From positions 130,242 through 194,241 of the forward strand of contig PKXJ01000018.1 of assembly GCA_003132305.1 (NCBI GenBank): a stretch of 64,000 nucleotides of DNA, read 5' to 3'. This document shows, one piece after another, positions 59,135 to 62,872 of this stretch (positions are counted from its first letter, which is position 1; each line of letters begins with the position of its first letter). The DNA comes from Acidimicrobiaceae bacterium. Its GTDB lineage: Bacteria > Actinomycetota > Acidimicrobiia > Acidimicrobiales > RAAP-2. The position numbers were made by a program, and so were the translations under genes. The notes below the pieces were generated by a model. The model was not told where the DNA came from. It did no database searches and was given only the letters and a program-made list of their open reading frames with translations.

Positions 59135-59165
59135 TACTTGACAAAACTTTAACGTTGTGCAAGTA
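59135..59165 (+). promoter_or_regulatory. Promoter with palindromic operator of the TetR gene
   Basis: TACTTGaCA-N-TGtgCAAGTA inverted repeat overlapping TTGACA (59138) and 17-bp spaced AAGTAT (59161); ATG 8 nt later. Confidence 0.5.
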
Positions 59166-59174
59166 TCTCGAACA

Positions 59175-59819
59175 ATGACTAATAAAGCAGAGTCCACCGA
59201 CTGGCGCGAAGGCCGCCGACGTTCGGCTCACGACGCGATCATCGATGCTGCCTGGTCGCTGGTGAGCGATGAGGGTCTCGCTGGTCTGTCACTCCGGGAT
59301 CTGGCTCGTCGGGCCGGAATCACTGCGCCAACGGTGTACGCCTATTTCGACTCGAAGAACGCTATCTATGACGCAATGTTCGGCCGCGCGGCGACGGAGT
59401 TCGCCGAAAGAATGGCCGAGCCGTTCGAGTGCGATGACCCTCGCGAAATCCTCACGGCGAGTGCGAGAAGGTTTGCCCATTTCTGCACCAATTCTCCAGC
59501 GCGCTATCAGCTGTTGTTCCAACGCACGATTCCCGGATTTGAACCGTCACCCGAGTCCTACGCACCGGCGGTGCGTTCCTTGGCGCTCGCTCGGAGCAGG
59601 CTAGCCCTCAACGGGATCACCGAGGCGCGCCATGTCGACATGTGGACCGCACTGATAACCGGCCTGGTCGACCAACAGGTCTCCAACGATCCCGGAGGGG
59701 AACGCTGGACCCGTCTCATCGACGAATCGGTTGCTATGTTCCTCACCCACTGCCAGCCAATCCAGGCTTCGCGAAAGCGCCCGTCCCGTCCAACTCGAGC
59801 CAAAGGAATCCCGACATGA
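59175..59819 (+). CDS. TetR/AcrR family transcriptional regulator
   Basis: AAWSLVSDEGLAGLSLRDLARRAGITAPTVYAYFDSKNAIYDAMF HTH. Confidence 0.92.
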   Translation: MTNKAESTDWREGRRRSAHDAIIDAAWSLVSDEGLAGLSLRDLARRAGITAPTVYAYFDSKNAIYDAMFGRAATEFAERMAEPFECDDPREILTASARRFAHFCTNSPARYQLLFQRTIPGFEPSPESYAPAVRSLALARSRLALNGITEARHVDMWTALITGLVDQQVSNDPGGERWTRLIDESVAMFLTHCQPIQASRKRPSRPTRAKGIPT

Positions 59820-60577
59820 CGACCATCGAAATCACGACTATCGAGCCGTTGACGCATCTTGAGGCTATGCGCCTTCAAGCAGATGAATTGGAGTACACAC
59901 TCGCGTCGCTCCGATCTCTCGATGATGTAGCGTGGTCGGCCGCGACCGACTGCCCCGCCTGGGACCTGCGCGCAATGTACCAACACGTCCTCGGCGCCTG
60001 CGAAGCGGGCGCGTCCATGCGCGAGAACATCCACCAACTGCGTCGGGCTCGGGCCCACCGCAAGCAACAGGGCGGACCGCTCGAAGCCGCGCTGTCAACG
60101 GTGCAGGTGCGCGAGCGAATCGACCTCAGCCCCACCCAGATTGTCGAGCGACTCGCGACTATCGCGCCCAAGACTGTCCGGGGCCGCAAGCGCACACCAG
60201 CGCTCGTGCGCAATCACGCGAGGCTCGCCGTCGATGGGCCCGTGCACGAGACTTGGAAGTTTGGCTACCTCATCGACACCATCTATCTGCGCGACCTATG
60301 GATGCACCGCGTCGACATGTCCCGCGCCCTCAACCGGCCACTCGAACTCAGCCCAAACCACGATGGTCGCATCGTCGCCGACGTTGTCGCTGAATGGGCA
60401 CGCCGCCATGGCAAGCCCTTCGTGCTTGAACTCACTGGCCCTGTTGGTGGGACGTACTCGCTTGACCCCGACCTTCCCGGGGCTGAACACCTATCACTGG
60501 ACGCCGTCGAATTCTGCCGCACGCTCGCTGGCCGCGCACCCGCCGCCGGCCTGCTCACCACCGTCGTCCCCTTTTGA
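59816..60577 (+). CDS. Maleylpyruvate isomerase-type (mycothiol-dependent/DinB fold) protein
   Basis: ATGA overlap with TetR gene; WSAATDCPAWDLRAMYQHVLGACEAGAS, LRDLWMHRVDMSRALNRP. Confidence 0.8.
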   Translation: MTTIEITTIEPLTHLEAMRLQADELEYTLASLRSLDDVAWSAATDCPAWDLRAMYQHVLGACEAGASMRENIHQLRRARAHRKQQGGPLEAALSTVQVRERIDLSPTQIVERLATIAPKTVRGRKRTPALVRNHARLAVDGPVHETWKFGYLIDTIYLRDLWMHRVDMSRALNRPLELSPNHDGRIVADVVAEWARRHGKPFVLELTGPVGGTYSLDPDLPGAEHLSLDAVEFCRTLAGRAPAAGLLTTVVPF

Positions 60578-60611
60578 ACGAACACACGAACCCACACCAA
60601 GGAGAACAGCA

Positions 60612-61337
60612 ATGGATACACGCATCGACGAAGTCGCCAGCCGCATTTATCGATTCTCGACATTCGTCCCCGGCATCGGACCCACCGGCTTCACCTTCAA
60701 CCAGTACCTCATCGACGACGATGAGCCCCTGCTGTTCCACACCGGACCCCGATCCATGTTCCCGCTCTTGGCCGCAGCCATCTCTACGATTACCCCACTA
60801 GAGCGTCTGCGTTGGATCACCTTCGGCCACCTTGAGTCCGACGAGTGCGGCGCCATGAACGAGTTGCTCGCCGCCGCGCCCCACGCCGAAGTGGCCCACG
60901 GGGCTCTCGGGTGCATGGTGTCACTGAACGACTTGGCCGACCGTGCACCGGTGCCACTCGCCGACGGCCAAGTCATCGAGTTGGGAGAGCACCGCGTACG
61001 CCACATCGACACGCCACACGTCCCGCACGGTTGGGAGGCGCGGGTGCTGTATGAGGAAACGACCACGACGCTCTTGTGCGGCGATCTATTCACCCAACTC
61101 GGCGACCCGCCCGCCATCACGGCCGACGACATCGTCGAGCCGGCCACGCGGGCCGAAGACGTTTTCGGAGCGACGTGCCTGACACCACGAACGGGGCCCA
61201 CCATCCGAAAACTCGCCGACCTCGCCCCCACCACCTTGGCCGTGATGCACGGTTCATGCTTCACCGGCGACGGGGCTACGGCCCTGCTCGCACTCGCGGA
61301 CGAGTACGACGCTCGTCTTGCCCAAGCCATCGCCTAA
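60612..61337 (+). CDS. Stand-alone MBL-fold oxygen-binding diiron (flavodiiron/ODP-like) protein
   Basis: NQYLIDDDEPLLFHTGP, ITFGHLESDECGAMNELL (HxExD), DTPHVPHGW, LLCGDLFTQLGDPP, VMHGSCFTG; no flavodoxin domain. Confidence 0.8.
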   Translation: MDTRIDEVASRIYRFSTFVPGIGPTGFTFNQYLIDDDEPLLFHTGPRSMFPLLAAAISTITPLERLRWITFGHLESDECGAMNELLAAAPHAEVAHGALGCMVSLNDLADRAPVPLADGQVIELGEHRVRHIDTPHVPHGWEARVLYEETTTTLLCGDLFTQLGDPPAITADDIVEPATRAEDVFGATCLTPRTGPTIRKLADLAPTTLAVMHGSCFTGDGATALLALADEYDARLAQAIA

Positions 61338-61563: not shown

Positions 61564-62058
61564 CTAACTATTGGTAGAAGCACCAGGTGAACTGTGAGGC
61601 AGTAGGTGAAAAAGCGTGAGAGGGTCGAGGGGTGATTGTATAAATCCATACTTCTCATAAAAGGCCTTCACACCATCTTGTTTTGCGTGAACCAGAACCA
61701 CTCTCACGCCGACGCGTTCACTCACCTCAAACGCCTTCAACATAAAATGTTTGAGAAGTGCTGCGGCGAGACCTTGACCTTGGTAGTCGCTGTGCACGGC
61801 AAGTCGCGAAAGTAACACCGCTGGAAGAATCTCTGGTTGGTTACGTCTCATCGCCTTTGGGGCGGCTTCACGAACAACGGCCGCACTGGCTGAGGCGTAA
61901 TAGGCGACGACGATTTGACCGTCTAGGGCTACCCACGTTCGTGATGCCCCTGAAGCTTGATTCGATCGAGCGCGAGTCTTAATCCAGGTATCGAGGGCCT
62001 CGGATTCGCACCGGAAATGGTTAGCATCGTGATCCTCCGCGAGGAGTACGGGACCCAA
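61564..62058 (-). CDS. GNAT acetyltransferase, probable toxin (TacT/AtaT type)
   Basis: LSRLAVHSDYQGQGLAAALLKHFML, FYEKYGFIQSPLDPLTLFHLLP; directly downstream of DUF1778 gene; start likely TTG 62058. Confidence 0.87.
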   Translation of the reverse strand: MGPVLLAEDHDANHFRCESEALDTWIKTRARSNQASGASRTWVALDGQIVVAYYASASAAVVREAAPKAMRRNQPEILPAVLLSRLAVHSDYQGQGLAAALLKHFMLKAFEVSERVGVRVVLVHAKQDGVKAFYEKYGFIQSPLDPLTLFHLLPHSSPGASTNS

Positions 62059-62073
62059 AAGATTCAGGTTGAA

Positions 62074-62343
62074 CTACCGCTCAAGCACTGACGGAGAAGT
62101 GAGCAATTTCACCATCGCCGCGTTGAACGTCACTGGTCGAGAGAGCGCACTCTCAATTTCGCGCCATTCATCTTCATTCGCGACGAATGATCGCAGATCG
62201 GCCAGATCAGATTGGGCCGCACCTACGGCGTTGCGAAGCACATAATCGTTGGTCGACTCCCCACGAACCTCGGCGGCGCGACGAAGCACTAGGTCCTGCT
62301 CGGGAGTTAATCGGATACTTAATCGTTCAGTTTTTGTAGCCAT
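62074..62343 (-). CDS. DUF1778 ribbon-helix-helix antitoxin
   Basis: MATKTERLSIRLTPEQDLVLRRAAEVRGESTNDYVLRNAVGAAQ. Confidence 0.88.
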   Translation of the reverse strand: MATKTERLSIRLTPEQDLVLRRAAEVRGESTNDYVLRNAVGAAQSDLADLRSFVANEDEWREIESALSRPVTFNAAMVKLLTSPSVLER

Positions 62344-62462
62344 ACGTTCATTGTACACCAATTGACGTACACCAGAACTCCTCGCGGTCCTTCTAAAAAG
62401 GATTTCAATCCCTTCGCGGGACCCGGACCACGTATTAGTCCATCGCGGGGTCGAAGGCGTAT

Positions 62463-62872
62463 TCAACGGCGTTCGCGACGTCCATCCCGCGACCGGCGGC
62501 TTCTGCCATCCCCGTGGGCTGCGACGCCAATCCTCGCGGCACGATGGACTTCGTAGCCGACCAGGCCAGTAGAAGCCTCCGATGCTTCACCAGTGTGCAC
62601 ACCCATGCGGACCCGGAGTTGCTCACCCTTCGGCCAATCTTGGTCAGCGAGGGCTCGCTGCATCCAGACCGATGCGGCGACGCACGCGCTAGGTGAGGTA
62701 AAGGTCGCGAAGAACGAGTCACCCTGGGTTCCTCGCTCCCGACCGTCGTGAATCGCGAGGCCTTCCCTGATGACCCGATGGTGATCCTGGAGAACTTGCG
62801 CGTAGGCGTCAGATCTCAAGCGGTTTAATAGTGCAGTGGTCCCTCGATGTCAGTGCAAAGAAATGTCAGCAT
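62463..62872 (-). pseudogene. Class III adenylate/guanylate cyclase fragment with frameshift
   Basis: MLTFLCTDIEG in one frame (ATG 62872) then LLNRLRSDAYAQVLQDHHRVIREGLAIHDGRERGTQGDSFFATFTSPSACVAASVWMQRALADQDWPKGEQLRVRMGVHTGEASEASTGLVGYEVHRAARIG in another; domain then ends. Confidence 0.8.

Follow-up and report, generated by a model that had tools for sequence, protein, structure and literature searches.

What might a TetR-family regulator, a protein of the MDMPI/DinB type, and a stand-alone ODP/flavodiiron-like MBL protein accomplish when they share one operon? The locus lies in a 64,000-nucleotide stretch of an Acidimicrobiaceae genome (hereafter, the window), where three same-strand genes encoding these proteins form a single operon (59175–61337, +; Table 1). 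The description of three co-directional genes in a reading made from the sequence only agrees with our coordinates, order, and strand, down to the 4-nt ATGA overlap of the TetR and MDMPI genes; TetR starts at the ATG at 59175. Genes for an HpnA-like epimerase and an alpha/beta hydrolase flank the trio, together with a GNAT/TacA-type pair on the opposite strand. The latter, directly 3′ of the trio, comprises a GNAT acetyltransferase (61564–62058) and a TacA1-type antitoxin (62074–62466; both −), probably a TacT/TacA-like toxin–antitoxin pair (61564–62466, −), and has a low GC3 of about 0.5. An adenylate/guanylate cyclase domain fragment (62463–62819, −; PF00211, under cut-off) overlaps the antitoxin ORF and looks like a truncated gene.

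Table 1. Features of the operon, its promoter, and the mycothiol genes of the same genome
Feature	Position	Strand	Basis
−35 TTGACA of operon promoter	59138..59143	+	TTGAC in 13/14 aligned group-1 promoters, one TTGCC
Predicted TetR operator ACTTTAACGTTGTGCAAGTAT	59146..59166	+	Core dyad T..AC...GT..AA, between −35 and −10
−10-like AAGTAT, 17 nt past −35	59161..59166	+	Sequence; distance to ATG constant in aligned promoters
TetR-family regulator, 214 aa	59175..59819	+	PF00440, 1.3e-14; kept in trio loci
MDMPI/DinB-superfamily, mycothiol-S-transferase-like protein, 253 aa, predicted metal triad H57/D160/H164	59816..60577	+	PF11716, TIGR03083
AAGGAG ribosome-binding site of ODP gene	60599..60604	+	Read from sequence
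Stand-alone ODP/flavodiiron-like MBL-fold protein, 241 aa, H-x-E-x-D-E subfamily	60612..61337	+	PF19583
Divergent MshC-, MshA-, tandem MshB/Mca-like genes	G000:C6:16489-17595, C2:24680-25861, C11:35936-37566		All under curated cut-offs

The ODP-like protein and its MDMPI-type partner

The ODP protein scores 46.3 bits against PF19583 (ODP; cut-off 27.2), a profile matched by all 64 family members (64/64; E ≤ 0.01). The ligand motifs named in the sequence-only reading are all present—HLESD, within HLESDE (73–78), PHVPHGW (135–141), CGDLF (156–160), and MHGS (212–215)—and its claim that a flavodoxin domain is missing also stands: the profile search placed PF19583 alone in the 241 aa, with no flavodoxin-like FMN domain. 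Seven residues (H73, E75, D77, E78, H139, D158, and H213) are invariant in 81/81 homologues. Six of these occupy positions of the flavodiiron ligand set (H73, E75, D77, H139, D158, H213), and the seventh position, H84 of flavodiiron proteins (FDPs), is Glu throughout. In the HMMER alignment, H139, the second His of PHVPHGW, corresponds to the His ligand of the FDP "MLHW" motif, D158 to the FDP Asp, and H213 to the FDP C-terminal His. The E78–H139 and H139–D158 spacings are near those of D. gigas ROO, in what we take to be the residue numbering of that protein.

The replacement of the second His by Glu in HLESDE had been presented as a departure from the canonical motif. The change is real but not odd, Glu being invariant across the family: Glu78 is found in phylum relatives and persists to a 28%-identical plasmid relative (L086, HFESDECGG). 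Because it persists down to 28% identity, HxExDE defines a family, and in the aligned sequences H-x-E-[AS]-D-E-[CS]-G is its family-wide invariant signature. We rejected a broken or degenerate FDP as the explanation of Glu78 on account of this invariance. Foldseek matches include T. maritima FDP structures altered at the same position (H90N, H90A, and H90D); since the H90N and H90A variants reportedly kept activity, Glu78 alone is no argument for an inactive site.

The AlphaFold2 model of the ODP protein has a pLDDT of 93.1 (74–85 in the H136/H139 loop), and Foldseek fills its first 34 places with FDPs or ODPs. Whether the protein would lack diiron-site geometry, a point left to be checked by the sequence-only reading, can be answered to the extent that none of the FDP ligands varies and that the predicted fold is FDP-like. 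Where hydrolases have His, the protein has Glu75, the mark of FDP-type sites, and 43 columns are invariant in an alignment of 64 ODP-family sequences. The ODP protein probably carries an FDP-type dinuclear site without flavin.

The MDMPI protein matches MDMPI_N (PF11716) at 39 bits (cut-off 24.2) and TIGR03083 at 61.4 (cut-off 50), with MDMPI_C at 13 bits, under its threshold of 29.5. No convincing PDB relative was found by sequence at E ≤ 1; the AlphaFold2 model (pLDDT 94) is matched by fold only, best by 2nsg/2nsf at 16% identity (Foldseek). H57, D160, and H164, unchanged in 24/24 MDMPI homologues, are the predicted metal ligands by analogy: They agree with the site of M. tuberculosis mycothiol S-transferase, whose metal is held by two His and one Asp (review, PMC10950700). 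The genome has just one further match to the protein's profile, a weak one, so it is not rich in close paralogues of the MDMPI gene. Candidate mycothiol genes score 424 bits (MshC-like; cut-off 485), 374 (MshA-like; 462), and 172 (MshB-like; 224), and cysS scores lower than the MshC-like protein on the MshC profile. From these matches, the host genome likely makes mycothiol, and Acidimicrobiia may do so with divergent enzymes.

Conservation, spread, and neighbors of the trio

At least 259 homologues exist, and we compared 80 homologous loci from other genomes. In about 25 of the 80, ODP is directly preceded by homologues of TetR and MDMPI. At one end of the range are trios >80% identical, from Acidimicrobiaceae close to this one; at the other, the TetR/MDMPI partners of Ilumatobacter, Pseudonocardiales, and other Actinomycetes MAGs are about 40% identical. 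Soil and peat bacteria carry the trio by the dozen, in Acidimicrobiia and also in other actinobacteria; the sequence-only reading would have been contradicted by a trio confined to its own genome, whereas this one is conserved well outside it, in unrelated flanks. Flanking genes mostly differ even between the trio loci of close relatives; we rejected chance adjacency because the trio recurs in many genomes with non-shared flanks.

Among sampled genomes, matches were found in 14/99 of the genus, 44/395 of the class, and 15/397 of the phylum; by these counts the operon is accessory and patchy. The sequence-only reading had called the trio more C-rich than its flanks and taken this as a hint of separate acquisition. 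This is borne out in part: third-position C is 0.53 in the ODP gene, compared with a window mean of 0.42 ± 0.05, and 0.47 in the MDMPI gene, whereas TetR is ordinary (0.38), and the local GC skew (−0.154) is among the window's strongest. Separate acquisition is plausible from the patchiness, and composition backs it only weakly; presence in 14 of the 99 genomes of the genus is the better evidence of gain and loss.

On a tree of 142 ODP proteins, which includes near-identical twins of the same genomes, MDMPI adjoins ODP in 52 rows (near-duplicate genomes included). Twelve changes account for this adjacency, whereas none of 100 shuffles needed fewer than 33. Because it is present in several separated ODP clades, the MDMPI pairing has been kept or rebuilt repeatedly. 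The trio genes also stay together through rearrangement, since two loci show shuffled yet linked orders (ODP–TetR–MDMPI in L125; ODP–MDMPI in L129). A third arrangement, TetR–ODP without MDMPI between, is seen in L026, L027, L035, L049, L111, and L119, and alphaproteobacteria carry a different TetR, divergent from ODP (e.g., L054, L060, L071, L073, L076). No fusion of ODP with MDMPI or TetR was found.

Other partners are diverse. In a Myxococcales sister pair, the place of MDMPI is taken by a GST gene ahead of ODP (L055) or a MAPEG gene behind it (L053); at both loci the partner overlaps ODP by 4 nt and TetR is divergent. These two partners occur at one locus apiece. Further coupled or near partners are catabolic-type enzymes: an amidohydrolase (L071), an FAD monooxygenase (L057), and a KshA-type Rieske oxygenase (L045). 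Given the MDMPI, GST, MAPEG, and zeta GST neighbors, unrelated thiol-transferase folds occur beside the ODP family. About half of the fetched loci have ODP without MDMPI or GST nearby and with mixed neighbors, which argues that the ODP core reaction needs no thiol-transferase partner; no enzyme family recurs beside solo ODP genes, and TetR alone does. The claim of a thiol partner accordingly rests mainly on the actinobacterial trio, the neighbors at non-MDMPI loci being mixed.

Relatives were also seen on plasmids. On a Shinella plasmid (L172, 2663–5046), maiA (maleylacetoacetate isomerase, zeta GST) lies upstream of ODP and a TauE/SafE exporter downstream, and the same ODP–TauE/SafE segment occurs near insertion sequences on Shinella and Comamonas plasmids (L172; L171, 3501–5046). 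This context hints at sulfite or thiol chemistry; a persulfide-dioxygenase role, suggested by TauE/SafE beside ODP, is only a lead. The 28%-identical HxExDE relative (L086, 6001–7091) adjoins a PNPOx-family gene on the IncX3 plasmid NZ_CP032190.1, and relatives of its type are found on widespread enterobacterial conjugative plasmids. A 43%-identical relative on another conjugative plasmid (L085; pGES-GZ, K. pneumoniae) adjoins a DNA cytosine methyltransferase/NotI-family restriction gene pair and IS1071.

Promoters, operators, and TetR subtypes

The window's TetR matches TetR_N (PF00440) at 54.2 bits (cut-off 24). A generic promoter consensus scan did not flag the operon promoter, which was found by comparing 14 promoters with the window's TetR type (group 1). 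These promoters keep the 17-nt spacer and an AAGTAT-like −10. The half-site bases of the operator are unchanged in 14/14, and the sequence farther upstream has diverged; the TetR repressor probably sits on its own promoter at this predicted operator. With ≤3 mismatches allowed, the operator occurs once in the 2.9-Mb genome (reversed control, 0), and the regulator therefore looks local. Only 8 nt separate the 3′ end of AAGTAT from the TetR start codon, which makes a leaderless or almost leaderless transcript probable.

Two TetR subtypes are distinguished by their recognition helices—TAPTVY in group 1, the window's own, and RQPSLY in group 2—and this difference runs in step with a difference in operators. 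In group-2 promoters a palindrome resembling CTATCNNNGATAG, which is the classical tetO core, is present once or twice, and a candidate target of the group-2 TetR is CTATCAGTGATAG. Exact CTATCNNNGATAG occurs at 13 sites in 172 loci, 13/13 at promoters of TetR/ODP operons, where fewer than one would be expected by chance in about 1.2 Mb (our own base-composition estimate rather than a tool-computed value). tetO-like CTATCNNNGATAG palindromes were seen at the promoters of L011, L017, L021, L024, L032, L037, L108, L116, L118, and L125; at L125 the site precedes ODP, the first gene there. No efflux pump was found in the actinobacterial operons that have these palindromes beside a QPSLY-type TetR. 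By eye, the divergent TetR/ODP intergenic regions of alphaproteobacteria (L071, L076, L060) contain paired or repeated TACACATATATGTA-like dyads, a candidate third operator type.

Possible functions and comparison with known systems

The sequence-only reading proposed a redox, NO, or xenobiotic module with an oxygen/NO-binding domain. What survives from that proposal is a TetR-controlled module in which an FDP/ODP-type MBL protein is paired with a protein of thiol-transferase fold; the O2/NO-binding role is not borne out by an operon that has neither a flavodoxin domain nor a recognizable electron donor. The mycothiol-transferase, GST, and MAPEG contexts instead point, as far as gene neighborhoods can, to thiol-conjugate or xenobiotic chemistry. 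We tentatively favor, at somewhat below an even chance, a TetR-derepressed, mycothiol-linked detoxification operon: its transferase would make or isomerize a thiol adduct, and its dinuclear-site protein would oxidize or hydrolyze the adduct or its precursor. Weighing against this reading are the sub-threshold scores of the mycothiol genes and of MDMPI_C, the single loci behind GST and MAPEG, and the many ODP genes with no thiol-transferase neighbor. TetR would bind the conserved operator between −35 and −10 and keep the operon off until a small-molecule ligand released it. The MDMPI/DinB enzyme, with its characteristic fold and triad, would use its His/Asp/His metal to activate mycothiol, and might attach it to an electrophilic compound or isomerize that compound. 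The ODP-like protein, whose ligand set and fold are of FDP type with Glu for one His, could oxidize or hydrolyze that compound, or else its thiol conjugate. A broader proposition, which we consider rather doubtful, holds that the HxExDE MBL family are flavin-free dinuclear-iron enzymes acting on low-molecular-weight-thiol conjugates, convergently paired with the host's thiol transferase: DinB/MDMPI with mycothiol in actinobacteria, and GST or MAPEG with glutathione in Myxococcales.

Several other functions would fit parts of this evidence. Thiol esters are substrates of MBL hydrolases such as glyoxalase II, and GSTs and DinB transferases would be natural upstream enzymes for an MBL-fold hydrolase; the ODP protein might thus be a zinc, manganese, or iron hydrolase, for example a glyoxalase II-like thioester or lactone hydrolase working after the transferase. 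Against this fairly unlikely assignment stand the invariant Glu75, which replaces the second His of HxHxDH and marks diiron FDPs, and the Foldseek ranking of FDPs and ODPs above all hydrolases. The FDP ligand set and spacing, with D. gigas ROO (1e5d) as the top match in both sequence and fold, would suit a diiron O2/NO reductase, a scavenger served by an unlinked flavoprotein or rubredoxin donor, with MDMPI handling by-products; the PNPOx-family (FMN split-barrel) gene beside the L086 relative is a possible donor. The absence of a flavodoxin domain and an obvious electron donor makes such a reductase less likely, and we judge it improbable: Rubredoxin and flavin reductase are likewise missing from the trio and none of these recurs nearby, and TetR is, to our knowledge, not a usual NO/O2 regulator.

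Regulation or a mobile history might be all that links the three genes, whose products would then work in separate reactions. The patchy distribution and the common ODP-only and TetR–ODP-only loci would be in keeping with this, but MDMPI is repeatedly found paired with ODP, in clades that lie apart and in changed gene order, and we hold such a bare link to be quite unlikely. Least probable, in our judgment, is an O2, iron, or NO sensor that informs another protein. A stand-alone ODP-type domain serves as such a sensor in a spirochaete, T. denticola (PMC7666581); here, no chemoreceptor or kinase gene was found in the trio or among the commonest neighbor families of ODP loci, and TetR supplies sensing already. 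Invariant residues beyond the ligands, together with the repeated enzyme pairing, suggest catalysis.

The trio is built from folds and superfamilies that have been described before. This does not seem to hold for the family-wide HxExDE site, for the conserved trio and the two TetR/operator systems that go with it, or for the pairing with a thiol transferase; we found nothing on the HxExDE ODP family in the open literature, a coverage that takes in few subscription papers. A widespread family annotated merely as "MBL fold metallo-hydrolase" gains a defining signature, a recurrent partner type, and a regulator. If the favored detoxification reading is true, it would add a class of diiron enzymes that neither reduce O2/NO nor sense for chemotaxis, and would give mycothiol-type bacteria a detoxification pathway open to testing. 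The TetR/operator pairs can be used at once as reporter constructs for finding the inducing compound.

Known systems resemble the trio in part. Flavodiiron proteins (D. gigas ROO, 1e5d; T. maritima FDP, 1vme; E. coli FlRd) share the MBL core (TMq about 0.8) and the His-x-Glu-x-Asp, His, Asp, and His ligands at similar spacing, but they have the flavodoxin domain missing here, are about 18% identical, and carry a His after the Asp (H84/H90) that is invariantly Glu in the HxExDE family. The ODPs of T. maritima (6qwo) and T. denticola (6r9n) are likewise stand-alone ODP-family MBL domains of about 250 aa with "GD" ahead of the Asp ligand; they are 18–20% identical, 6qrq has HQDPDV in place of HxExDE, and the T. 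denticola protein is coupled to a chemoreceptor homologue (PMC7666581) rather than to TetR and MDMPI. Mycothiol-dependent maleylpyruvate isomerase (2nsf/2nsg) is the closest fold to the MDMPI protein, and mycothiol S-transferase of the DinB superfamily has two His and one Asp that match the invariant H57, D160, and H164; yet identity to 2nsf/2nsg is 16%, the C-terminal domain is under the Pfam cut-off, and the trio operon has no gentisate-pathway genes. The recognition helix of Tn10 TetR reads QPTLY. Group-2 relatives, with their QPSLY helix and operator core CTATCANTGATAG, resemble the Tn10-type TetR/tetO system, whereas their predicted target is the trio operon rather than an efflux pump, and the window's TetR belongs to the other group, with TAPTVY and a different operator.
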